40,160 nucleotides of DNA from an uncultured Mucilaginibacter sp. (lineage in GTDB: Bacteria; Bacteroidota; Bacteroidia; Sphingobacteriales; Sphingobacteriaceae), in assembly GCF_937859865.1 (NCBI RefSeq), contig NZ_CALMAT010000115.1, positions 1-40,160 on the forward strand. Reading direction: 5' to 3'. Made by a program: the position numbers and the translations under genes. This document shows, piece after piece, positions 7,594-39,543 of the stretch. A model generated the notes under the pieces. That model did not search any database. It was given only the letters and a program-made list of their open reading frames with translations, and was not told the DNA's origin. Position 1 is the first letter of the stretch. Each line of letters opens with the position of its first letter.

Positions 7594-8178
7594 ATGGATA
7601 AATTCAAAAATAAATACCGCATTCCTTCCGCCCGGTTGCAAAATTGGGATTACCGTTCTGATGGTGCGTATTTTATTACCATCTGTACCAAAAACAGGGA
7701 ACCTTTTTTTGGTGAAATTTTAGATGCAAATGTTTCGATAATGAAATTGAATGAGCTTGGTAAACTGGCAGAACAATATTGGTTAACCATTCCGGCACAT
7801 TTTCCTTATGTTGAATTGGGAAATTTTGTGGTGATGCCTAACCATATACATGGTATTTTAATTATTGATAAAATGGATGATGGTTTTGTTTGCGGGGTTG
7901 ATCCGGTTGGATTTGTAGAGACGTTGCATGCAACGTCTCTACCGAAAAACGCCGATCGTCAGATGTCACATATTTCTCCTAAATCCGGTTCCATATCTAC
8001 CATCATCCGTTCCTACAAATCTGTCGTTTCAAAACATGCGCGGGCTATCCATCCCAACTTTGAATGGCAAACCCGTTTCCACGATCATATTATCCGTAAT
8101 GCTGATTCGTTTGAAACCATCCAGAATTATATATTTAACAATCCTGCCAACTGGAGCAACGATAAATTCTATCAATAA
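7594..8178 (+). CDS. REP-associated tyrosine transposase (RAYT), IS200-like Y1 family
   Basis: 194 residues. The HUH metal-binding motif is visible as PNHIHG (His84 and His86), within VVMPNHIHGILI. The downstream WQTRFHDHIIRN and FNNPANW are typical of Bacteroidota RAYT proteins. I cannot assign the nucleophilic tyrosine with confidence; Tyr141 in IIRSYKS is a candidate. Such enzymes nick single-stranded palindromic repeats and are normally single-copy domesticated genes, not mobile elements. Here four palindromes flank or invade the gene, and one (7915-7942) encodes residues about 108-117 (FVETLHATSL) between the HUH motif and the helical end. The gene sits inside the restriction operon and its TAA overlaps the hsdR ATG by one base (TAATG), so it is probably co-expressed. 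Confidence 0.9.
   Translation: MDKFKNKYRIPSARLQNWDYRSDGAYFITICTKNREPFFGEILDANVSIMKLNELGKLAEQYWLTIPAHFPYVELGNFVVMPNHIHGILIIDKMDDGFVCGVDPVGFVETLHATSLPKNADRQMSHISPKSGSISTIIRSYKSVVSKHARAIHPNFEWQTRFHDHIIRNADSFETIQNYIFNNPANWSNDKFYQ
7915..7942. repeat. RAYT palindrome inside the RAYT coding sequence, copy 4
   Basis: The perfect 28-bp palindrome starts GTAGAGACGTTGCA and lies in frame within the transposase gene. It is read as part of FVETLHATSLP without a stop or frame change. Confidence 0.9.
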
Positions 8179-16465: not shown

Positions 16466-18208
16466 ATGAACCATCCAATTACCCGTTCAACTGCCGTTTT
16501 ATTTTTGCTCCTGTTTGCTTTAAATGCTTGCAAACAGGCAGATAACAAGAGCCAAAACCAAAAAAACACTTCTGCCGCCGATCAGAATTGGTGGAAAGAA
16601 GCCGTGGTTTACCAGATTTATCCCCGAAGTTTTAAAGACAGCAATGGCGATGGCGTAGGCGATTTGAACGGCATCACTTCTAAATTGGATTATATCAAAA
16701 GCTTGGGCATCAATACCGTTTGGCTCAACCCGGTTTATTCTTCCCCAAACACAGACAATGGTTACGATGTGAGCGATTACCGCAACATCATGAAAGAATT
16801 TGGTACGATGGGCGATTTTGACAAAATGCTGAAAGGAATGCACGAACGCGGCATAAAGCTGGTAATGGATTTGGTGGTGAACCACAGCAGCAACCAGCAC
16901 GAATGGTTTAAACAATCGCGTAGCTCGCGCAGCAACCCTTACCGTAATTATTACCACTGGTGGAATGCAGAACGGGGCAAACCGCCCTACCGTTACAGTT
17001 TGTTTGATGTAAACCACGATGCCTGGAAATACGATTCGCTCACCAATGCTTATTACCTGCACTATTTTTCTGTCCAGCAGCCGGATTTGAACTGGGAAAA
17101 CCCGAAAGTAAGGCAGGAAGTGTACAGCATCATGAAGTTTTGGGCAGACAAAGGGATTGACGGTTTCCGCATGGATGCTTATCAGTTTGCGGCAAAAGAC
17201 ACTACTTTTCCGAAAATACCAGTGAACGGACAAAATTTTATGAAGTATTATGCCATCGGTCCGCACTTGCACGATTATTTAAAGGAAATGAACCGCGAGA
17301 TTTACAGCAAGTACAACCTGATGAGCGTAGCAGAAGGTGCCGGAAACTCCTTGCAAGATGCACATGATATGGTAGATGCCGACCGCCACGAACTCAATAT
17401 GGCTTATGCTTTTGATGGCGTTAGCGTTGCTAAGGCCAACGGTTACAGTTTGTTGGAATTAAAAAACGTTTTCAGCAGATGGGACAGCGCGTTTGCCAAA
17501 AAAGGCTGGTTGTCTATCTTTTTGGCCAACCACGACCAAGCCAGGTTGGTAAGCAGGTTTGGTAACGACAGCCCGGAATTTAGGGAAGTTTCCTCAAAAA
17601 TGTTGAACACATTTTTATTGACCATGCGTGGCACACCTTATGTTTACAATGGTGATGAACTGGGGATGACCAATGCCGGTTTCACCAAAATAGAAGATTA
17701 TAACGACATTGCTTTACGGAACGAATACCAGCATATGGAAAACACCGGCGGCGACCTGAAGCAATTTTTGCAATTGGCCGGAAAAGAAAACCGCGATAAC
17801 AGCCGTACGCCTTTTCCCTGGAACGGTTCGGCAAATGCAGGTTTTACTACCGGAACGCCGTGGTTAAAAATTAACCCAAATTACAAAACGATCAATGCTT
17901 CGGCAGAAGACAAAGACCCGAACAGTTGCTTAAACTACTTCAGAAAAGTGGTAAAACTTAGAAAAGACAACCCGGTACTGGTTTATGGCAAATACACTTT
18001 GCTTGACAAAAGCAACCCCAACGTTTATGCTTATACCCGCGAGTACAACGGCAAAAAACTGCTCGTCCTCCTCAATTTTAAAAATAAAGCGGCTGTAGTA
18101 AACACAGGGATTGACCTGGCCAAAGCAAAAGTATTGTTGGGGAATTACGCCGAACCTGCGCAAGATGCCAAACTGCGCCCTTATGAAGCCGTGGTTTACC
18201 AGCTCTAA
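16466..18208 (+). CDS. GH13 alpha-glucosidase-like lipoprotein (oligo-1,6-glucosidase type)
   Basis: 580 residues. A signal peptide ends at Cys22 (FALNAC), so it is probably lipid-anchored. The GH13 motifs are all present: DSNGDGVGDLNG calcium loop (58-69), DLVVNH (135-140), QPDLNW (205-210), GFRMDAYQ with nucleophile Asp237, VAEG with acid Glu290, and NHDQ (355-358). QPDLNW and the calcium loop point to the oligo-1,6-glucosidase/trehalulose-type group that acts on short alpha-glucosides rather than long starch; the exact subfamily is not settled. It hydrolyses or transfers alpha-glucosyl units in the periplasm. The trehalase gene follows on the same strand about 160 bp on, separated by a facing motif pair, so the two probably share regulation but not one simple transcript. 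Confidence 0.9.
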   Translation: MNHPITRSTAVLFLLLFALNACKQADNKSQNQKNTSAADQNWWKEAVVYQIYPRSFKDSNGDGVGDLNGITSKLDYIKSLGINTVWLNPVYSSPNTDNGYDVSDYRNIMKEFGTMGDFDKMLKGMHERGIKLVMDLVVNHSSNQHEWFKQSRSSRSNPYRNYYHWWNAERGKPPYRYSLFDVNHDAWKYDSLTNAYYLHYFSVQQPDLNWENPKVRQEVYSIMKFWADKGIDGFRMDAYQFAAKDTTFPKIPVNGQNFMKYYAIGPHLHDYLKEMNREIYSKYNLMSVAEGAGNSLQDAHDMVDADRHELNMAYAFDGVSVAKANGYSLLELKNVFSRWDSAFAKKGWLSIFLANHDQARLVSRFGNDSPEFREVSSKMLNTFLLTMRGTPYVYNGDELGMTNAGFTKIEDYNDIALRNEYQHMENTGGDLKQFLQLAGKENRDNSRTPFPWNGSANAGFTTGTPWLKINPNYKTINASAEDKDPNSCLNYFRKVVKLRKDNPVLVYGKYTLLDKSNPNVYAYTREYNGKKLLVLLNFKNKAAVVNTGIDLAKAKVLLGNYAEPAQDAKLRPYEAVVYQL

Positions 18209-21640: not shown

Positions 21641-23677
21641 TTACTTAACCATATAAGTTTTATGTTCCGGGCCGATACCTGTAATCGTCAACGATTTCCA
21701 TTTAGCAGGAAGCTTGCTTTTAACTTGCGTAATACCATTTGGCGTGATATCTAACCCGCCAAAACCCATCAGCAAACTTTGTAAAATCCCGCCTGCACCT
21801 GTGGCAAAATAAGGGTTTGTCCCGCCTTTCGTTTCTGCGATTACGCGGAAAGGTGGAACTAAGTTTGGCTCATAAGATTCTTTAAACCAATGATAAGCCT
21901 TTTCCCCATTGCCCAAGCGCGCATACAACAAGGCAAAAATAGCTTGCGTCATGGCCGGTGTCCCTTCATTCGGAATTCGCGTTTCATAATAACTCAGGTC
22001 TTTTTTGATTTGCGCAGGTTCCGTAATTACTTTAAGCGGATAAGGCAACAAGTTTACATCGCCCTGTTTAATCCCTTCGCCATGATAGGAAGCATGTTCT
22101 TGCGTTACGCCGTTTGCCATTTTCAAAATCGGGATATTTTGAGCCACCAAAGCCCAATCTGCATTAGCCGGAAACCCTAATAATTTAGCTGCTGCCGCTG
22201 CGTTTTGCAGGTTTACTTTTGCCGCTGCGTTGGTAAAAGCGTTGTTATCCACGTTTTCTGCCCATTCATCGGCTGCTACTACATTTTTGATGTCGAAATG
22301 CCCGTTTCCGTTTCTTTCTACGCGGCTTGCCCAAAAATCGGCTGCAGCAGAAAGTATCGGCCAGCCCCGTTCGCGCAGCCAGGTTTTATCTTGTGTTACG
22401 CAGTAATAATTCCAGGCTGCGTTGGCCACATCGGCTGTGATGTGATGCTCAAAAGGACCACTCAAAGCCCAAACCGGCGTTTCTTCTACACCTGTCCCGG
22501 CACTTTCCCATGGAAACATCGCCCCTTTAAAACCGTGGGAAAAAGCATTTTTGCGGGCGGCTTCCAACCGTTCAAAACGATATTCGACCAATGATTTGGC
22601 AATCTCCGGATGCAGAACCAGCAAGGCCGGGTACATCCAAACTTCGGTGTCCCAAAAAACATGTCCGTTATAACCCAAGCCCGAAAGCCCCATCGGCGAA
22701 GGCGAAAAAGCAGTTCCGGCGCGGGAAAACGAATACAAATGGTACAACATACTGTGCACATCTTGCTGAGTTTGCGCGTCGCCTTCAATTTTAATATCGC
22801 TTTTCCATAACTCGTCCCAGGCTTGGTTATGAAATTTCAGCAAGCGGTCGTGTCCTTCCAACCGGGCAAAAATGGTTAAGCGTTCGGCTTCGTTCAGCGG
22901 GTCATCGTGGTGGGCAGAAGTAATGGAGGAACCAACCACCGAAAAAGTATAAGTTTCGCCGGCCTTCAAACTTTTGCTGAATTTCATCTGGTGCATATTG
23001 CTGTCCCACATTTCGTGGATTACGGCTGGCTCTTGCCCGTGCGGTTCATTAAACAAAAAACTGGTAGAAGCGCACAATTGTAACTTCCCGGTAGGGCTTT
23101 TGGCCGTAGAAGTAAGCAGTTTTAAGGTTACGTGCGGCCGGTCAATCTCGTTATAATAATTCTGCACTTCGCGCAAAGCATCCGGCGCTTCCATTACGCT
23201 GGCCGGGGTAATGGTGATGTCTTTTTTCGCCGTGATGGAAATATCCATCAAAACTGTGAACGGCAACTGGCGCAAAGAATAGTAAGTGTATTTTACAGTT
23301 GCGTCATCAGCGTACAAAAAAGTAGTGGTAAAAGAAGCATGCTGCATATCCAGTTGCTGCTGCATATTGCTGGCGGCTTTGGCATCCAAACGCTTTCCGT
23401 TGATGTCCAAATTCATGTTCAACAAGTTAAAACTATTGAGGAAATTGCTCACTCGGCCGCGGCCGTACTGATCGTAAACCCCGGCCAGCACCACATTTTT
23501 CACTTTAAAAGGTTCGGGGGAAGAAACAATCCCGATCATGCCATTGGCAACGGTAACGCCAAAATAATTTGCAGGATCAATTTTATCGGCGGTGATACGC
23601 CAGGGATTAATGTTTTGAGCGAAAAGTTTGGGCTGAAGCAGGTTTAAAAGAAATAAAACGAATGCAATTTTTTTCAT
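21641..23677 (-). CDS. GH65 glycoside hydrolase, acid trehalase / kojibiose hydrolase type
   Basis: 678 residues with a signal peptide ending KLFAQ (about residue 21). The N-terminal beta-sandwich is followed by the (alpha/alpha)6 barrel: GHVFWDTEVWMYP (338-350), the acid catalyst Glu471 in ADEWAENVDNNAFTN, and GIKQGDVNLLPYPL (535-548). A signal peptide argues for hydrolysis outside the cytoplasm, since phosphorylases of this family work inside. Substrate is an alpha-linked glucose disaccharide; trehalose or kojibiose are the best guesses, because hydrolytic GH65 members are known for both. A GCAAACGTTT site lies 145 bp upstream, the same as in front of lacI, which suggests LacI control. The next gene on this strand is the PAP2-like one. 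Confidence 0.88.
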   Translation of the reverse strand: MKKIAFVLFLLNLLQPKLFAQNINPWRITADKIDPANYFGVTVANGMIGIVSSPEPFKVKNVVLAGVYDQYGRGRVSNFLNSFNLLNMNLDINGKRLDAKAASNMQQQLDMQHASFTTTFLYADDATVKYTYYSLRQLPFTVLMDISITAKKDITITPASVMEAPDALREVQNYYNEIDRPHVTLKLLTSTAKSPTGKLQLCASTSFLFNEPHGQEPAVIHEMWDSNMHQMKFSKSLKAGETYTFSVVGSSITSAHHDDPLNEAERLTIFARLEGHDRLLKFHNQAWDELWKSDIKIEGDAQTQQDVHSMLYHLYSFSRAGTAFSPSPMGLSGLGYNGHVFWDTEVWMYPALLVLHPEIAKSLVEYRFERLEAARKNAFSHGFKGAMFPWESAGTGVEETPVWALSGPFEHHITADVANAAWNYYCVTQDKTWLRERGWPILSAAADFWASRVERNGNGHFDIKNVVAADEWAENVDNNAFTNAAAKVNLQNAAAAAKLLGFPANADWALVAQNIPILKMANGVTQEHASYHGEGIKQGDVNLLPYPLKVITEPAQIKKDLSYYETRIPNEGTPAMTQAIFALLYARLGNGEKAYHWFKESYEPNLVPPFRVIAETKGGTNPYFATGAGGILQSLLMGFGGLDITPNGITQVKSKLPAKWKSLTITGIGPEHKTYMVK

Positions 23678-32085: not shown

Positions 32086-33639
32086 TTAATAGCCTGCGTT
32101 TTGTGTAAGGTTTGGGTTAGAATCAACTGCACGTTGTGGAATTGGGTAAACAGTACGTGATTTATCAGATACCGAAGGCCGCTGGTCAACGGGATCATTA
32201 AATGTTCCAAACCTAATCTGGTCATTCCTTCTCCAGCCTTCCCAATACAATTCGCGGCCTCTTTCAGCCAGTAAAGCTTTGGCATCAAGTGCGGTTAATT
32301 CACTTGCCCCGCGTGTTGTTCTAATGTTGTTAACTATTGCAAGTGCGGTTTGTCCGTTAGGATCAGTTCCTCCCCGCATAATAGCTTCAGCTTTCATTAA
32401 CAATACATCTGAATACCGCAAAATAACATACGTATTGGTTGCATAATCATCATTTACAGAACCATCAGCTTTTGGTTGTGGAAAGTATTTGATCACCCTG
32501 ATGCCTTGGGCTTCTGTAGAATAATTTAAATCAACATTGGGTGTAAAAATTAACGGAGAACCGTTTCTTTGCGTTAAGGCAACATGGCCGGGCCCATATT
32601 GCTGCCCCAGTAAAAACCCGGTTGTTAAACCGTTTAGGTTAGTTAAACCCGGATATGATCCGCCTATACGCTCATCTTTAGGTTCAAATGTTTTGTAAAA
32701 ATCAGCAAGCGTGGTAAAACCGTTCCAACCGCTTGGGCTTTGGTTGTAGTGCATAACCATCCGCCACCGATTGTGTGCATTGGCAGGGGCATTTGTGGAT
32801 GTATTAACTAAACCTAATATAATTTCCTGGCTAAGGGTTGAATTGTTCCAGGAGAAATTATCAAAGTATTTGCCCGGGCCTGCTAATTGATAGCCGGCAG
32901 CTATTACTTTATTTGCATAAGTAATAACTTTGTTCATGTCGTCTGCAACAAAAGTAAAAGGCCCGCCAACGGTAGAAGCTTTGTAAACAGCTTTGTTTAA
33001 ATAAACTTTGGCCAACAATGCATCTGCTGCAGCTTTGCTTGCATGCCCCGCAACAGCAGTAGTACCTAAATTAGTGTCTGCATATTCTAAATCTTTGATT
33101 ATAAAATCTGTGGCATCGCTGCGATTGTAAACAATCGGGTTTGCATCCGAAGATGCTGCCGGATCCCTAAAGGGAGCCTTACCATATAAATCAACAACTT
33201 GGAACATAAAATAAGCCCTCAAAAAACTGGCTTCCGCTTTATTTTGAGTAGAAACACCTGAGGTATTGATTACTTGTGTTGCGCGGTAAACACCAGTGTT
33301 CAATTCATCCCAAGTATCGCTCACCTGTTGGTGAAAGGCATCCCACGTGTGTGTATGCAGTTTACGCCACACCCCAAAATCACCCCAATCTGTGCCTCTG
33401 GTTGGCCCCATCATTTCATCGGTTGGGTGCTCTTGCAAAGCATAGGTATTTGCCTGGTTTGTTTGCCCGTTTAACTGGGCATATACACCGTTCAAATCAG
33501 AAGCAGAGCCTGCGCCACCAGTGGAAACTGATTTTGACCCATAAAGTTCTTCGTTCAACTTGGTACAACTTATGGCAGTAAATACAAGTCCTGCCATAGC
33601 GACCATTCCTATTTTCAATGTTAAATTTTTCATGTTCAT
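32086..33639 (-). CDS. susD: SusD-like outer-membrane glycan-binding lipoprotein
   Basis: 517 residues. Lipobox FTAISC gives Cys25. The RagB/SusD family features are present: KLNEELYG start after the anchor, N-terminal TPR-like helices (VYRATQVINTSG, AEASFLRAYFMFQVVDLYGK), and the C-terminal WEGWRRNDQIRFG with the NPNLTQNAGY end. It forms the lid over its SusC partner and binds the sugar at the cell surface. The start is 4 bp after the SusC stop. The gene is on the minus strand with SusC first. Ligand preference cannot be read from sequence. Confidence 0.95.
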   Translation of the reverse strand: MNMKNLTLKIGMVAMAGLVFTAISCTKLNEELYGSKSVSTGGAGSASDLNGVYAQLNGQTNQANTYALQEHPTDEMMGPTRGTDWGDFGVWRKLHTHTWDAFHQQVSDTWDELNTGVYRATQVINTSGVSTQNKAEASFLRAYFMFQVVDLYGKAPFRDPAASSDANPIVYNRSDATDFIIKDLEYADTNLGTTAVAGHASKAAADALLAKVYLNKAVYKASTVGGPFTFVADDMNKVITYANKVIAAGYQLAGPGKYFDNFSWNNSTLSQEIILGLVNTSTNAPANAHNRWRMVMHYNQSPSGWNGFTTLADFYKTFEPKDERIGGSYPGLTNLNGLTTGFLLGQQYGPGHVALTQRNGSPLIFTPNVDLNYSTEAQGIRVIKYFPQPKADGSVNDDYATNTYVILRYSDVLLMKAEAIMRGGTDPNGQTALAIVNNIRTTRGASELTALDAKALLAERGRELYWEGWRRNDQIRFGTFNDPVDQRPSVSDKSRTVYPIPQRAVDSNPNLTQNAGY

Positions 33640-33643
33640 GTAT

Positions 33644-36631
33644 TTAAAAACCTGCGTTTAAACCAAATGTAATTGTACGTGCTTTAGGGTAAGAAGTGTA
33701 ATCTATTCCTCTTGAAGGTACATTGTTAATTTGCTTATTAGTATTAATTTCAGGGTCAAGACCAGAATAGTTGGTAATCAAGAGTAAATTTTGGCCAGTT
33801 AGGTTTAACCTTAAAGTTTTGAAAGTTTTACTGTTGTTTAAATTAAATGTATAACCCAACGTAGCATTTGAAAGACGTAAAAAATCCCCCTTTTCAAGCC
33901 AGCGTGTTGATACTTGTCCTGAGTTTAACGCATTTTCATTAGTAAAAGCCACGTCGGTTGTTACATTATGGCCGGTTACTAAGTTACCTCTGTAAAAATA
34001 AGCATTGGCTGTATTGTTATATACGTAGAAACCAGTTGCAGCATTTAGGAAAAAACTTAAACTCCATTTACCGTAACTAAAGTTGTTGGTTAAACCTGCG
34101 GTAAACTTAGGCAAAGCGCTTCCTTGCAAAGTAGCCGCATCAATACCATTAGGATAAATTGCAAACCCTTTCGCATCCAAACCATTGTATTGGGCTACTT
34201 TAAATGTAAACAACGGGTAACCATTTTGTATTACCTGCGAAAACGCACCTGATAAGCCCTGTCCGTTTATTGCACCCGTATTAACTACACGTTGGGCAAA
34301 GTTTTTTACTGTGTTTTTTAAGATGGTCATGTTATAGGCAATATCCCAGGTAAACTTATTGCCCTGTACAGCAGCAAAATTTAAACCTAATTCAAGCCCT
34401 TTGTTTATATTGTTGCCTGGCAAATTGATCCATTGTCCGGGAGAAGGCGCAGGAGCTGAGAAATACTGAAAGAATAAAAGGTCTTTTCCGTTTTTGTTAA
34501 AATAATCAATACTACCTGTTAACCTGCCTTTTAAGATTGCAAAATCAATACCTGCACCGTATTGGGTTGAAGTTTCCCATTTCAAATCCGGATTTGGCGA
34601 GTACAATAAAGTTGTACTATTGTTACCGAAATTATATTGGTTTACGGCAAGGGATTGATAAGCCGGAAACTCCTGGTTGCCTGTTTTACCATAATTTAAA
34701 CGCAAGCTTAGTTCATCAAATAAAGTTTTTGGGGCAAAACTTTCATTCATTATTTTCCATTTTACCGCTAAAGCAGGAAAAGTAGCATATTTGTGGTTTG
34801 CACCAAATTTAGACGAGCCATCTGTCCGTACTGTTGCAGTAACCAAATAGCGGTCTTTGTAGGAATAATTAGCCCGGCCGTAAAATGACTGAAGCTCGTA
34901 TTTTGTTGAATCACCATAGATAGGAACTCTGGTGGTAAAGTTGTTAATATCTTTTACCAACACATTTGGAGTAGATGTATTCGACCTGACATCATTACGC
35001 CCAAAGTTTTTAAACACCTGGTAAGAATAACCTCCTAAAACTGTTAAAGCACTATTGTCTGCCCATCTTTTATCATAATTTAAAGTGTGTTCTGTAATTT
35101 GTGAACTTAAGGTAACATACTGTAACTGGCCACGGCCGCTACCGGTAATTGCAGCAATTGATTGCCCTCTTACGTTGTCTGATTCTGTATAACCTGCTAA
35201 ATTTGGATCGTAAAATGTTTTTCTTAAAGATGTTGAATAATCATTTCCAAAAGTCCCTCTGTAGCTTAAATTTTTAAATAATTTTAAGGTAGCACCAAAA
35301 TTTCCCAAATACCTGTTGATATTATCTCTGTCATCTATTTGGTTTAACATAGCAACCGGGTTACGGTTACTGCCGTCAAAAAAATAAGTTCCGTCAGGGT
35401 TTTTTACCGGATAGGTTGGGTTAAGCGTTAATGCCGCCCCTATCAAACTTCCCTGCGCCCCTGCATTGTCTGTAATTGGCGCGTATGTATCTTTTACGTT
35501 TGATGCTAAAAAGTTCAAATCAAATTTTAATACGTCTTTAAATAAAGACTGGGATGCGTTTATACGGCCGGTTAAACGTTTTAAAGCTGATTTTTTAACA
35601 ATACCATTCTGATCGTCGTACCCAAAAGAAGCCCTGTAAGTAAAACCTTGTTTATTTGCACCGCCAAAACCTAAAGTATAGCTTTGAGACAGTGCAGTAC
35701 GAAAAATTTCTTTCTGGTAATCCACGTTTGCCCCTTTATTGATCGCTGACGCATCGGCACCAATGCCGTTAACTGCTTGTACAAATTGTGAAGCATTTAA
35801 TAACTTATATCTGCTTGCGGTAGTGGCGACAGTGGTATTAGCTGAAAATTGTATTCCCTGCCCTGCCCGGCCTTTACGGGTAGTTATCAATACAACACCA
35901 TTTGCACCACGAGACCCATAAATAGCAGAAGCAGAGGCATCTTTTAAAACAGATATATTTTCAATATCGGCAGGGTTTAAAAATGAAAGCGGGCTTCTTG
36001 CCGATGATGAACCAAGAGAGCCTGTTGTAGCGCCCGATCCCGAATAGGTGTCGTTAGTGATAGGAACTCCATCTATTACATACAAAGGATCATTACCAGC
36101 CCTGATTGAACCAGTACCACGGATGTTGATAGAGGCACTGCCACCTGGCTCTCCGCTTGACGGAGTTACCTGAACACCTGCTATCCGGCCTTGTATCAAT
36201 TGGTCGGGTGTGGATATAATACCTTTGTTAAAATCCTTAGGGCCTAACGAAGCCACAGAACCTGTTGCATCTTTTACGCGCTGCGTACCGTAACCGACAA
36301 CTACCACCTCATTTAAGGCATTAGTTGTTGACGTTAAGGTAACATTGACGTTGTTTGATGCCGGAATTGAAACCTCCTTGGAGGTATAACCGATGTACGA
36401 AACTACCAAAGTAGTGGCCGAAGCCGGGACCGTGATCCTGAAACTGCCGCTTGCATCGGTGTTGGTACCCGTGGTAGAACCTTTTACAATAATGGATACG
36501 CCAATTAAGGCTGATTTGTCTTTGCTGTCGGTTACTCTACCAGTAATTACCTTGTTTTGTGCCATTGCCGGCTGTATAACAAAGCAGATCAGGGCAAAAA
36601 AACCAAGTTGGAGTAGTCGTTTTAATTTCAT
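33644..36631 (-). CDS. susC: SusC-like TonB-dependent outer-membrane transporter
   Basis: 995 residues, full length. Signal peptide ends at PAMAQ (about residue 25). A carboxypeptidase-regulatory-like domain follows (VITGRVTDSKDKSALIGVSI, to about 112). Then the NEVVVVGYGTQ segment typical of SusC leads to the plug (GRIAGVQVTPSSGEPGGSAS, then IRAGNDPLYVIDGVPI) and the 22-strand barrel, ending FGLNAGF. There is no STN/FecR signalling domain, so control is probably by the adjacent LacI protein. It imports the sugar with energy from TonB. The upstream region to the divergent lacI is long (516 bp) and holds an apparent permease fragment. Confidence 0.96.
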   Translation of the reverse strand: MKLKRLLQLGFFALICFVIQPAMAQNKVITGRVTDSKDKSALIGVSIIVKGSTTGTNTDASGSFRITVPASATTLVVSYIGYTSKEVSIPASNNVNVTLTSTTNALNEVVVVGYGTQRVKDATGSVASLGPKDFNKGIISTPDQLIQGRIAGVQVTPSSGEPGGSASINIRGTGSIRAGNDPLYVIDGVPITNDTYSGSGATTGSLGSSSARSPLSFLNPADIENISVLKDASASAIYGSRGANGVVLITTRKGRAGQGIQFSANTTVATTASRYKLLNASQFVQAVNGIGADASAINKGANVDYQKEIFRTALSQSYTLGFGGANKQGFTYRASFGYDDQNGIVKKSALKRLTGRINASQSLFKDVLKFDLNFLASNVKDTYAPITDNAGAQGSLIGAALTLNPTYPVKNPDGTYFFDGSNRNPVAMLNQIDDRDNINRYLGNFGATLKLFKNLSYRGTFGNDYSTSLRKTFYDPNLAGYTESDNVRGQSIAAITGSGRGQLQYVTLSSQITEHTLNYDKRWADNSALTVLGGYSYQVFKNFGRNDVRSNTSTPNVLVKDINNFTTRVPIYGDSTKYELQSFYGRANYSYKDRYLVTATVRTDGSSKFGANHKYATFPALAVKWKIMNESFAPKTLFDELSLRLNYGKTGNQEFPAYQSLAVNQYNFGNNSTTLLYSPNPDLKWETSTQYGAGIDFAILKGRLTGSIDYFNKNGKDLLFFQYFSAPAPSPGQWINLPGNNINKGLELGLNFAAVQGNKFTWDIAYNMTILKNTVKNFAQRVVNTGAINGQGLSGAFSQVIQNGYPLFTFKVAQYNGLDAKGFAIYPNGIDAATLQGSALPKFTAGLTNNFSYGKWSLSFFLNAATGFYVYNNTANAYFYRGNLVTGHNVTTDVAFTNENALNSGQVSTRWLEKGDFLRLSNATLGYTFNLNNSKTFKTLRLNLTGQNLLLITNYSGLDPEINTNKQINNVPSRGIDYTSYPKARTITFGLNAGF

Positions 36632-36650: not shown

Positions 36651-36902
36651 TTAATAATTATTACAGGGTAAAAGAAGCATACTGTTTTTATACCTGTAAT
36701 TTCGTTGCGGTGATAGGGTTAGGTAAGCGTTTTTTTTCATTTTAATAAGTTTGATTACAGATATAGCAGCCAACGCAAGCAAAATGCCTGCTGACGGAAC
36801 AGCGTGAACAGAACCTTTACTCGGCCGTAACCCGGCATAAAAAGGCAGGGTTAGGTTTTGCAGCAGTACAGGGATGACGATAAACCCATTAAAAATGCCC
36901 AT
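36651..36902 (-). pseudogene. Apparent C-terminal fragment of an MFS sugar permease upstream of susC
   Basis: The 83-codon frame begins MGIFNGFIVIPVLLQNLTLP and continues FYAGLRP to AGILLALAAISVIKLIKM. The first phrase and the glycine-alanine helix look like the last two membrane helices of SLC45-type / GPH-like sugar permeases of Bacteroidota, which read like MGIFN-FIVIP...AG.LLLLAA. A stop lies a few codons before the ATG, and no earlier helices are encoded upstream, so the rest of the gene is missing. After about residue 57 the frame runs through a dispersed motif (MLLLP) and stops. Same strand as susC, ending 20 bp before it. Recognition is from memory; a search would settle it. Confidence 0.45.
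36669..36702. repeat. Back-to-back motif pair upstream of susC
   Basis: TAAAAGAAGCA (36669-36679) is directly followed by TACTGTTTTTATACCTGTAA (36680-36699), two half-units diverging from one point, unlike the facing pairs elsewhere. Confidence 0.7.
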
Positions 36903-37099
36903 GTTATAATTTGTTTATGGTAAAAGGTTATGGTATAAATTTTTATAAAAACAAAACTTACGGCTATAAAAAGCCTAAAGGGTATTCGTATTGTTGTTTA
37001 AAAAGCTATTAAATCAACTTAATAATTGGTGCCTCGAAGATAGAAAAAGCAACAATAATTTTACAATAGCTTTGTCGTATTTCTTCTGCATGTGTTTTC

Positions 37100-37109
37100 G
37101 CAAACGTTT
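37100..37109. promoter_or_regulatory. Likely LacI operator in front of lacI
   Basis: GCAAACGTTT within CAAACGTTTG, a perfect 10-bp palindrome with central CG as is typical of LacI-family sites. It lies 38 bp before the lacI ATG, just upstream of a -7-like TACCTTTA (37125-37132), so it would allow self-control. It is 470 bp from susC. Confidence 0.55.
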
Positions 37110-37147: not shown

Positions 37148-38143
37148 ATGAAACCTGAAGTAACTTTAAAAAAGTTGGCAGTTATGCTTAATTTAAGCGT
37201 GTCCACTATTTCCAGGGCCTTAAAAAACCATCCCGACATATCCGCAGAAACACGCACGAAAGTCAAAGAGCTGGCTACCGTTTTAGAATATGAACCAAAT
37301 GCTTATGCCATCCATTTGCGTACCAATAACAGCAAAGAGTTTGGCATTGTCATTCCTGCTATTTCCAGCTACTTCTATCATTCTTTCATCAGCTCGGTAG
37401 AGGAAGAAGCCCGACGGTTTGGCTATTCTGTTATTATCCTGCAATCCGGGGATGACCCGGTTTTGGAACAGGAAAACCTGAAAAAATGCAAACAAAACCG
37501 GGTGAGCGGTGTGTTTGCGGCCATTACTTCAAAAACAGAAGATATTCAAAGTTTTTTAAAATTAGAAAACCAACAGATCCCCGTTATTTTTTTTGACAAA
37601 GTGCCCGCTTTTGAAGCCTGCAACAAAGTTTGTGTGGCAGATGGTTTGGCAGCAAGCATGGCGGCAGAAGCGTTGATTTTGAAGAAAAAATTAGCTGTTT
37701 TATCTATATTTGGAAATAAAAACCTTTCTATCACCAAAAAGCGGTTAAAAAGCTATACCGATACTTTCAAAAAACATAAAACTGGTACAGAAATTTTTAC
37801 TTTTCATGCCGGTAATACCGAAGAAGCTTTTCAAATTGTGCTCCAAGCTTTTGCCGGGCAAAGCAAACCGGATGCTGTTTTTTGCATGAGCGATGAGATT
37901 TTGGCCGGGGCAATGAAAGCCGTGCAGAAATTAGCGTTGAGGTTTCCAAAGGATGTAGGCATCATCACGATAAGCGACGGCTATTTGCCTAAAATATATT
38001 ACCCAGAGATCAGTTACACAGAAACCAGCGGCCATAAATTAGGGAAGTTGGCTTTTAGCAGGATGCTGGCTTGTATAGCAGGCAGCACTGTGGCACAAGA
38101 ATTAAGCATAGACTCTAAGTTGATTGAAGGCGGATCTTTGTAA
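37148..38143 (+). CDS. LacI-family transcriptional regulator
   Basis: 331 residues. The N-terminal helix-turn-helix is standard (TLKKLAVMLNLSVSTISRAL, then SAETRTKVKELATVLEYEPN), followed by the hinge and periplasmic-binding-protein-like sensor (FGIVIPAISSYFYHSFISSV to the C-terminus). It is divergent from susC, which is typical of sugar-use loci where it controls the sus operon in response to a sugar signal. Candidate binding sites are at 37100 and 23822. The sensor's ligand is unknown. An ordinary full-length member. The gene after it (GH130) begins 243 bp downstream, past a motif pair, so co-transcription is uncertain. Confidence 0.93.
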   Translation: MKPEVTLKKLAVMLNLSVSTISRALKNHPDISAETRTKVKELATVLEYEPNAYAIHLRTNNSKEFGIVIPAISSYFYHSFISSVEEEARRFGYSVIILQSGDDPVLEQENLKKCKQNRVSGVFAAITSKTEDIQSFLKLENQQIPVIFFDKVPAFEACNKVCVADGLAASMAAEALILKKKLAVLSIFGNKNLSITKKRLKSYTDTFKKHKTGTEIFTFHAGNTEEAFQIVLQAFAGQSKPDAVFCMSDEILAGAMKAVQKLALRFPKDVGIITISDGYLPKIYYPEISYTETSGHKLGKLAFSRMLACIAGSTVAQELSIDSKLIEGGSL

Positions 38144-38249: not shown

Positions 38250-38337
38250 TGCTTCTTTTATACCCATAAATTTGGTATTGGCTTATACAGGTACAAAAAC
38301 CACAAAAAACAATGATTTTTAGGTGGTAAAAGAAGCA
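38250..38337. repeat. Facing TGCTTCTTTTA pair between lacI and GH130
   Basis: TGCTTCTTTTATACCCATAA (38250) faces GATTTTTAGGTGGTAAAAGA (to 38337). Flanking ACCAAT and TTGGTATTGG extend the left half-unit's hairpin. Confidence 0.85.
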
Positions 38338-38361
38338 TGGGCAATATTTAAACAAGACCTT

Positions 38362-38385: not shown

Positions 38386-39543
38386 ATGGAAATGATGAAA
38401 AGTTTTACGAAGCCTGTCCAAATTTTAATTGGTTTATTATGGATGGCCAGCACCGCGTGCGCGCAACAGAACAAATTGCCCGATTGGGCTTTTGGCGGTT
38501 TTAAAAGGCCGGCTGGCATAAACCCGATAATCTCCCCTGACTCCAGTGCCAAATTTACGGACCCGATCTTGAATAAAGCCGTTGCTTGGGAATCCAATGA
38601 CACTTTTAACCCGGCTGTTGCCATTATCAATGGTAAAATTGTGGTTTTGTACCGGTCGGAAGACAAATCCGGCGTTGGCATCGGCTTCCGCACTTCCAGG
38701 CTGGGTTATGCGGAAAGTTCGGATGGTTTTCATTTTAAACGAAGTAAAACACCGGTTTTTTACCCTGCCAATGATGCCCAAAAAAAGTACGAATGGCCCG
38801 GCGGCTGCGAAGACCCGCGGGTTGCCGTTACAGAAAGCGGCACGTACGTGGTGTTTTATACGCAATGGAACCGGGAAACCCCAAGGCTTGGCGTGGCAAC
38901 ATCAAAAGATTTGAAAAACTGGACAAAACACGGGCCGATATTTGAGGATGCGTATCAGGGAAAGTTTTTGAACATCCCGCATAAATCAGCTTCGGTATTG
39001 ACCAAATTGGTTGGGGATAAACAGGTTATCACAAAAATCAACGGAAAGTACTGGATGTATTGGGGCGAACTGCATGTTTATGCGGCAACTTCTGCCAACC
39101 TGGTAGATTGGGAGCCGGTAACAAACCAGGATGGGACGCTTAAAGAACTGATCTCGCCCAGAAAAGGCTATTTTGATAGCGAACTTACCGAATGCGGGCC
39201 GCCCGCTCTGTTGACGGACAAAGGGATTATCCTATTTTACAACGGCAAAAACAAGGCCGGTAGTGATGGCGACAAGCGTTTTAATGCAAATTCCTACTGT
39301 GCCGGGCAGGCCTTGTTTGACAAAAACGACCCAGCAAAACCACTGGCCCGCTTAGACGTGCCATTTTTAAGGCCGATGGAAGCATTCGAAAAAAGCGGTC
39401 AATATGTAAACGGCACTGTGTTTATCGAAGGTATGACCTTCTTTCAAAAAAAGTGGTTTTTATATTATGGCTGCGCCGATTCGCGTGTTGCCGTTGCCGT
39501 GTATGACCCGACTCATCCAGCCCCGCCCGACCCTGTAAATTAA
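38386..39543 (+). CDS. GH130 beta-mannosidase-like enzyme, exported
   Basis: 385 residues. A signal peptide ends near ACAQQ (about residue 26; lipid attachment at that Cys is possible). The five-bladed propeller shows the GH130 pattern: NPAVAIINGKIVVLYRSED, then YEWPGGCEDPRVAV with the Asp/Glu pair that contacts the -1 mannose, KYWMYWGELHVYAATS, and the end YYGCADSRVAVAVYDP. The wording is close to Bacteroides GH130 beta-1,2-mannosidases rather than mannosyl-phosphorylases, and export supports a hydrolase. If so it would remove beta-1,2-linked mannose, as on yeast mannan. It has Cys in GGCEDPR where related proteins have a hydrophobic residue. A second ATG at 38392 is an equal start. Confidence 0.82.
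   Translation: MEMMKSFTKPVQILIGLLWMASTACAQQNKLPDWAFGGFKRPAGINPIISPDSSAKFTDPILNKAVAWESNDTFNPAVAIINGKIVVLYRSEDKSGVGIGFRTSRLGYAESSDGFHFKRSKTPVFYPANDAQKKYEWPGGCEDPRVAVTESGTYVVFYTQWNRETPRLGVATSKDLKNWTKHGPIFEDAYQGKFLNIPHKSASVLTKLVGDKQVITKINGKYWMYWGELHVYAATSANLVDWEPVTNQDGTLKELISPRKGYFDSELTECGPPALLTDKGIILFYNGKNKAGSDGDKRFNANSYCAGQALFDKNDPAKPLARLDVPFLRPMEAFEKSGQYVNGTVFIEGMTFFQKKWFLYYGCADSRVAVAVYDPTHPAPPDPVN

Follow-up and report, generated by a model that had tools for sequence, protein, structure and literature searches.

A dispersed, genus-specific DNA motif, putatively an uptake signal, inside a sugar permease relic of a Sphingobacteriaceae genome

Introduction

Known uptake-sequence systems rely on type IV pili, and the protein ComP is a pilin. 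Uptake sequences typically form inverted pairs at terminators and are missing from foreign DNA. The USS of Haemophilus influenzae and other Pasteurellaceae, as described in extracts of PMC1626085, has a short core flanked by A/T-rich tracts and occurs at near one copy per kb; its perfect copies exceed one-mismatch copies, and two related types are found between subclades. The same extracts describe the neisserial DUS as devoid of flanking motifs. According to extracts of PMC3630211, the neisserial DUS is bound by ComP, and Simonsiella muelleri carries two DUS dialects in one genome, so that the encoded residues can vary. For Riemerella anatipestifer and R. columbina, which are Bacteroidota, PMC8459023 reports a natural transformation that needs ComEC and DprA, with pilus homologs not detected. 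No recognisable report of an uptake sequence in Bacteroidota was found among the open-access papers searched.

Here we analyse a stretch of 40,160 nucleotides from an uncultured Mucilaginibacter sp. of the Sphingobacteriaceae (contig NZ_CALMAT010000115.1), hereafter called the window. A first-pass annotation had read an open frame between its lacI and susC genes as the remnant of a sugar permease. We describe a motif pair that occupies the end of this frame, the distribution of the motif in the genus, and the permease relic in which the pair is embedded.

Results

An inverted motif pair in the lacI-susC gap

The 83-aa open frame at 36651..36902 (-), on the same strand as susC, was confirmed in the sequence. 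It is made of two parts, the second of which holds the motif pair:

36741..36902 (-), permease relic (codons 1-54); residues 1-50 correspond by homology to the two final helices of GPH/SLC45-like MFS sugar permeases
36651..36740 (-), remainder of the frame, which is not permease and holds the motif pair (sequence inspection)
36667..36680 (+), dispersed motif, GA form (GGTAAAAGAAGCAT) (motif search)
36679..36690 (-), dispersed motif, AC form (TAAAAACAGTAT), inverted and overlapping the GA copy (motif search)
36660..36700 (-), hairpin that the motif pair forms with its flanking bases (-9.5 kcal/mol, z -2.3; equalled by 3 of 200 shuffles)
38325..38338 (+), further exact motif copy in the lacI-GH130 gap (motif search)

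The last third of the frame is thus an overlapping inverted pair, with TAAAAACAGTAT on the minus strand and TAAAAGAAGCAT on the other. The motif recurs in the lacI-GH130 gap and in the lacI-susC gap of the congener G002. In the window, 35 sites of both forms extend from 682 to 39693, many of them intergenic, including both gaps flanking lacI; the 13-mer GGTAAAAGAAGCA is found 20 times at up to one mismatch, for 0.15 copies expected.

The motif exists in two interchangeable forms, G[GAC]TAAAAGAAG[CT]AT and TAAAAACAG[CT]AT, and an A/T tract lies ahead of either form. The tract upstream of the second form, TAAAAACAGYAT, is the same as that of GVTAAAAGAAGYAT and lies at an equal distance for both forms in all three genus genomes; a downstream tract is weaker, and no clear conservation was seen beyond the core and the A/T tracts. 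Intermediates between the two forms (TAAAAAAAGCAT, TAAAAGCAGCAT) are rare genome-wide.

The motif is specific to the genus

The motif is genus-specific, with about two thousand copies of the main form alone. GVTAAAAGAAGYAT is present in 2064 copies in the 4-Mb genome of the window (1038 and 1026 on the two strands) and in 1826 copies in a congener (903 and 923), and in at most 6 copies in each of the 298 other genomes of our order draw, all from the same family; its reversed control is never found. The 13-mer GGTAAAAGAAGCA gave 882, 628 and 351 exact copies in the three genus genomes (882 in that of the window, where the reversed control occurs once) and five or fewer in each of 298 other family genomes. 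The 12-mer TAAAAGAAGCAT has 2114 copies in the genome of the window and does not exceed 11 in any of 394 other genomes of the class.

We ranked 12-mers and counted sites in samples of 392, 600 and 635 kb from the three genus genomes. TAAAAGAAGCAT and TAAAAACAGYAT are the most overrepresented 12-mers in all three samples, where both forms together account for 336 (0.86 per kb), 453 and 381 sites, respectively. Perfect copies of TAAAAGAAGCAT outnumber all one-mismatch copies (210 versus 112). Samples of 100 kb from each of four sister genera showed nothing comparable, and the motif therefore has no dialect family of the kind known in Neisseriaceae.

Sites accumulate between genes and are conserved as DNA words

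The 336 sites sampled from the genome of the window fall into 202 intergenic, 115 coding and 19 at gene edges, whereas called frames cover 88% of the bases. Site density is 12.6-, 10.2- and 9.6-fold higher in intergenic than in coding DNA in the three genus genomes. Convergent gaps are richer in sites than divergent ones (odds ratios 1.8-2.5), and we rejected a promoter-only reading of the motif on the poverty of divergent gaps. Neighbouring copies of GVTAAAAGAAGYAT lie within 60 bp of each other in 18 of 190 cases, for 6 expected, and ten of these pairs face each other.

Conservation of coding sites was followed in 170 reciprocal-best gene pairs between G002 and G001, in which 68 aligned sites were examined and 10 were set aside (5 at edges, 2 in gaps, 3 unaligned). 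The motif is present in both genomes at 43 of the 68 sites: 31 are identical, 6 differ at the C/T position and 6 are in the other form. The remaining 25 have lost the motif by substitution. By comparison, 5681 of 55394 control 12-mers are identical (10.3%), as are 24 of 96 control words centred on the same tripeptides but lacking the motif. The motif is kept at 7 of 12 sites between G000 and G001 (3 set aside) and at 5 of 5 between G000 and G002 (1 set aside), over a baseline of 9-10%. Each of the six form switches (VKTVF/VKEAF is one) alters two or three bases and, with them, the protein. Since such switches change the protein while intermediates are rare, constraint or drive appears to act on the DNA word and not on the protein.

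A segment of G002 contig C1 (47,930-122,277; L149-L153; 74 kb) contains no site of either form, for about 45 expected at the G002 rate. It encodes a serine recombinase, two tyrosine integrases, a TrwC relaxase, ArdC, a type I methylase and a C39 exporter, and we regard it as a mobile or defence island. Sites resume after it, with 15 in the next 18 kb among core genes that include an EngA-like GTPase and MetH. The under-representation of the motif in recently acquired DNA is thus illustrated by a single case, spotted post hoc.

A probable DNA uptake signal

These data make a DNA uptake signal the most probable role of the motif; from its observed distribution and conservation we infer the receptor, the uptake and the drive. 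A surface or periplasmic receptor would prefer motif-bearing, and hence conspecific, DNA; biased uptake followed by recombination would multiply the motif and maintain it across the genome, its copies being presumably best tolerated between genes and at gene ends. The likeness to uptake sequences lies in a short, non-mobile and clade-specific motif of hundreds to thousands of copies, about one per kb, without strand bias and with perfect copies dominant. It extends to the presence of sites in both coding and intergenic DNA with an intergenic and convergent bias, to inverted pairs at gene ends, to flanking A/T tracts of the Pasteurellaceae type, to two forms that vary the encoded residues, and to absence from mobile DNA.

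As far as the extracts cited above describe the Pasteurellaceae USS, the genus motif resembles it in density, A/T tracts, excess of perfect copies and existence of two types. It differs in having an unrelated core, in belonging to a different phylum, in the position of the main A/T tract (5' of the core as written), and in occurring in a genus where no type IV pilus ATPase was found and where the uptake role is putative. Clade specificity and hundreds to thousands of copies are common to the genus motif and to the Neisseriaceae DUS dialects as presented in those extracts, and the two forms vary residues (VKEA/VKTV) like the described dialect pair of S. muelleri. In contrast to the neisserial DUS, reported there to be without flanking motifs, the genus motif has A/T tracts, and the pilin ComP should be missing from a genus without pili.

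None of the three genus genomes encodes the type IV pilus/type II secretion ATPase (PF00437), which is present in 8 of the 31 genomes searched; this and the lack of dialects in the sampled sister genera count against the uptake reading. ComEC is encoded in all three, as in the Riemerella species of the same phylum for which PMC8459023 describes transformation without detected pilus homologs. However, ComEC is also present in 10 of 14 control genomes, and being so widespread it lends the uptake reading little weight. The phrase 'uptake sequence' does not occur in the main text of PMC8459023, and competence, reported for Riemerella, is putative in the genus studied here. We propose only tentatively that this Bacteroidota genus performs sequence-specific DNA uptake without a type IV pilus, guided by a signal in two forms (GA and AC) that has an A/T tract on its 5' side and recurs about once every 1.2 kb.

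Other readings of the motif

The main rival of the uptake reading, rather unlikely, is that the motif serves as a binding site for an abundant nucleoid (chromosome-organising) protein or for a global regulator peculiar to the genus, selection for binding keeping the sites in place. A comparable distribution could result from any sequence-specific DNA-binding protein whose sites are pervasive, strong conservation of single sites and interchangeable forms are equally expected of a binding site, and a genus without the pilus ATPase sits well with it. Against it, the sites are strand-balanced at about 0.86 per kb, many are coding, and divergent gaps, which hold promoters only, are poorer than convergent ones; the pattern is therefore unlike a transcription-factor regulon. 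The absence of sites from the G002 island fits both the uptake and the nucleoid-protein readings.

A transcription-terminator or RNA-level signal spread at gene ends is improbable. It would agree with the enrichment at gene ends and in convergent gaps and with inverted pairs able to form hairpins, but orientations are about equal within 150 bp of gene 3' ends (70 sense, 62 antisense), most copies are not closely paired, and 115 of the 336 sites lie inside coding frames.

We consider it very unlikely that a transposase spread the copies as REP/MITE-like mobile insertions, as hundreds of intergenic copies, some in inverted pairs, and a 194-aa ORF of the window (7594..8178, +), which we take to resemble a REP-associated transposase, might suggest: a longer palindromic unit inserted as a block was not found, clear conservation stops at the core and A/T tracts, the ORF has no Pfam match at E<=1e-5, and orthologous coding positions without the motif show substitutions (30 sites) and rarely a gap (3 sites), which argues against insertion of a mobile unit. 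This ORF is located inside the type I restriction cluster of the window.

The motif pair is embedded in a permease relic

Residues 1-50 of the frame align with the C-termini of full-length sugar permeases (about 430-460 aa), the best match, to an open frame of 436 aa, reaching 51% identity over 51 aa (E 6.0e-10). Matches at E<=0.1 were obtained in 81 of 301 family genomes, that of the window included; outside the genome of the window, every match with E below 1e-3 falls in a long open frame (430-493 aa). Scored against 49 full-length permeases, the fragment gave 52.0 bits, compared with at most 30.4 bits for 1000 shuffles and 19.6 bits for the reversed fragment; a chance likeness is ruled out by the shuffles and by the confinement of the matches to C-termini. 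At E<=1 the 83 aa matched no Pfam or NCBIfam model, which is unsurprising for a fragment of this length. A full-length permease of a relative (G031) matches MFS_1 above cut-off and TIGR01301 (GPH sucrose/proton symporter) below its curated cut-off. These matches agree with the first-pass annotation, which had likened the frame to the last part of an MFS permease of the SLC45/GPH kind; this holds for the first 50-54 residues or so, and the tail at 36651-36740 is another sequence, which holds the motif pair.

The alignment begins at about residue 375 of 434, in a conserved YMGIFN segment, and the frame retains residues 375-424 approximately. The first 374 or so are absent, so that about 86% of the permease is gone. 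A tblastn search with the permeases of relatives found only chance-level pieces in the 245 bp up to lacI, and we rejected the presence of hidden earlier helices in the gap, in agreement with the earlier reading that they are missing. Five codons ahead of the Met of the frame there is a stop codon. The frame lies directly upstream of susC, as first annotated, and ends 20 bp before its start (36631). Lacking the 12-helix architecture of about 430-460 aa, it is a relic and not a member gene. With the relic as query, only one other permease was found in the same genome (contig C70, 31% identity), and no plasmid copy of the lacI-susC gap was found.

From these alignments, the first 54 codons or so are almost certainly the remaining 3' end of a gene for a GPH/SLC45-like inner-membrane sugar permease, now leader or spacer DNA between lacI and susC. 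A deletion has taken about the first 86% of the gene, with its break point in the YMGIFN segment ahead of the last two helices, so that the ATG of the frame is an internal Met and no gene start. It is highly doubtful that the frame encodes a small membrane protein that arose from the permease tail and is functional, even though it is open, free of internal stops and still 51% identical to a distant permease, because its start is a conserved internal Met, no stand-alone homolog of about 80 aa exists among the matches in the 301 family genomes, the orthologous lacI-susC gap of G002 bears no trace of it and its tail consists of the motif pair.

Most relatives keep a full permease at the locus

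The neighbouring genes of the window are the following:

37148..38143 (+), LacI-family regulator; in relatives, its orthologs show where the permease locus lies (homology)
33644..36631 (-), SusC-like TonB-dependent receptor, downstream of the relic (profile match)
32086..33639 (-), SusD-like protein (profile match)
16466..18208 (+), GH13 enzyme, whose counterpart adjoins the permease in one relative genus, g13 (homology)
21641..23677 (-), GH65 kojibiose hydrolase (above cut-off for NF053734; g13 relatives carry a counterpart at their permease locus)
38386-39543 (+), GH130 (NCBIfam beta-1,2-mannosidase model NF058598 above cut-off)
37095-37108 (-), operator-like word AACGTTTGCGAAAA ahead of lacI (38-bp stretch around it 84% identical in G002)

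LacI orthologs were found at E<=1e-110 in 28 of 301 family genomes, those of the window and of G002 included, and the neighbourhood was read in the 27 genomes other than that of the window. Of these 27 relatives, 24 have a complete permease gene on the stretch that carries the LacI ortholog, in three arrangements: LacI | (GH13) - permease - GH100 - PfkB - SusC - SusD (14 relatives), LacI | (TonB receptor) - GH100 - permease (6) and LacI | permease - GH13 (4). In the first 14 the permease is located between lacI and susC, where the first-pass annotation had predicted a full gene. Two relatives run counter to this: G002 and G209 have no permease at the locus. In a third, G074, contig ends divide the locus; GH100 adjoins LacI there, and a permease opens another contig. 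The earlier suggestion that the locus once had its own inner-membrane permease is therefore well supported, and very probably correct. Import of the released sugar may, as that annotation also proposed, now fall to a gene elsewhere.

The relic is closest (52%) to the permease of the LacI | (TonB receptor) - GH100 - permease type. Compared with these sucrose-type GPH/MFS permease loci (LacI, TonB receptor, GH100, permease), where LacI orthologs are 58-66% identical and permease C-termini match the relic at 44-52%, the window keeps the permease tail only, with no GH100 or kinase gene in the lacI-susC gap. In the LacI-permease loci L054 and L058 (G064, G142), the TonB receptor between lacI and GH100 is 181 aa long or was not seen, a decay of one part of the locus akin to the relic.

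G002 (L079/L080) retains lacI (77% identity), GH65 and FG-GAP genes. The susC gene in the corresponding position shares only 39% identity, and the receptor pair may therefore have been exchanged beside a conserved regulator. In the window, GH130 adjoins the LacI and SusCD genes, whereas the other enzymes look directed at alpha-glucosides.

The word AACGTTTGCGAAAA, repeated in tandem in G002, is likely the LacI operator. A regulon could not be built on this 14-mer, which has one exact copy in the window and looser matches at chance level. Promoters of the Bacteroidota type follow the pattern TTTG...TANNTTTG; we searched for one ahead of susC and found no match in the gap, the pattern occurring at chance level in the window.

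Discussion

Taken alone, the permease relic is ordinary gene decay in a sugar-utilisation locus. The interest of the locus lies in the motif pair inside the relic and not in the permease tail. A permease relic combined with a genus-specific dispersed motif acting as a DNA uptake signal is, in our view, probably the right joint explanation.

If uptake is indeed pilus-less, uptake sequences may have arisen independently outside Pasteurellaceae and Neisseriaceae, with a receptor tolerant of a coupled dinucleotide switch, a proposal to which we give slightly less than even credence. Two proteobacterial families are documented to use self-recognition tags in taking up DNA, and both do so via pili. 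An uptake motif in a Bacteroidota genus without the pilus ATPase would mean that such tags evolve independently of the pilus. Used as bait DNA, the motif would offer a direct handle on the outer-membrane DNA receptor required in pilus-less competent Bacteroidota. Should it prove to be the site of a nucleoid protein, it would still represent an unusually dense, genus-specific DNA code in two forms.
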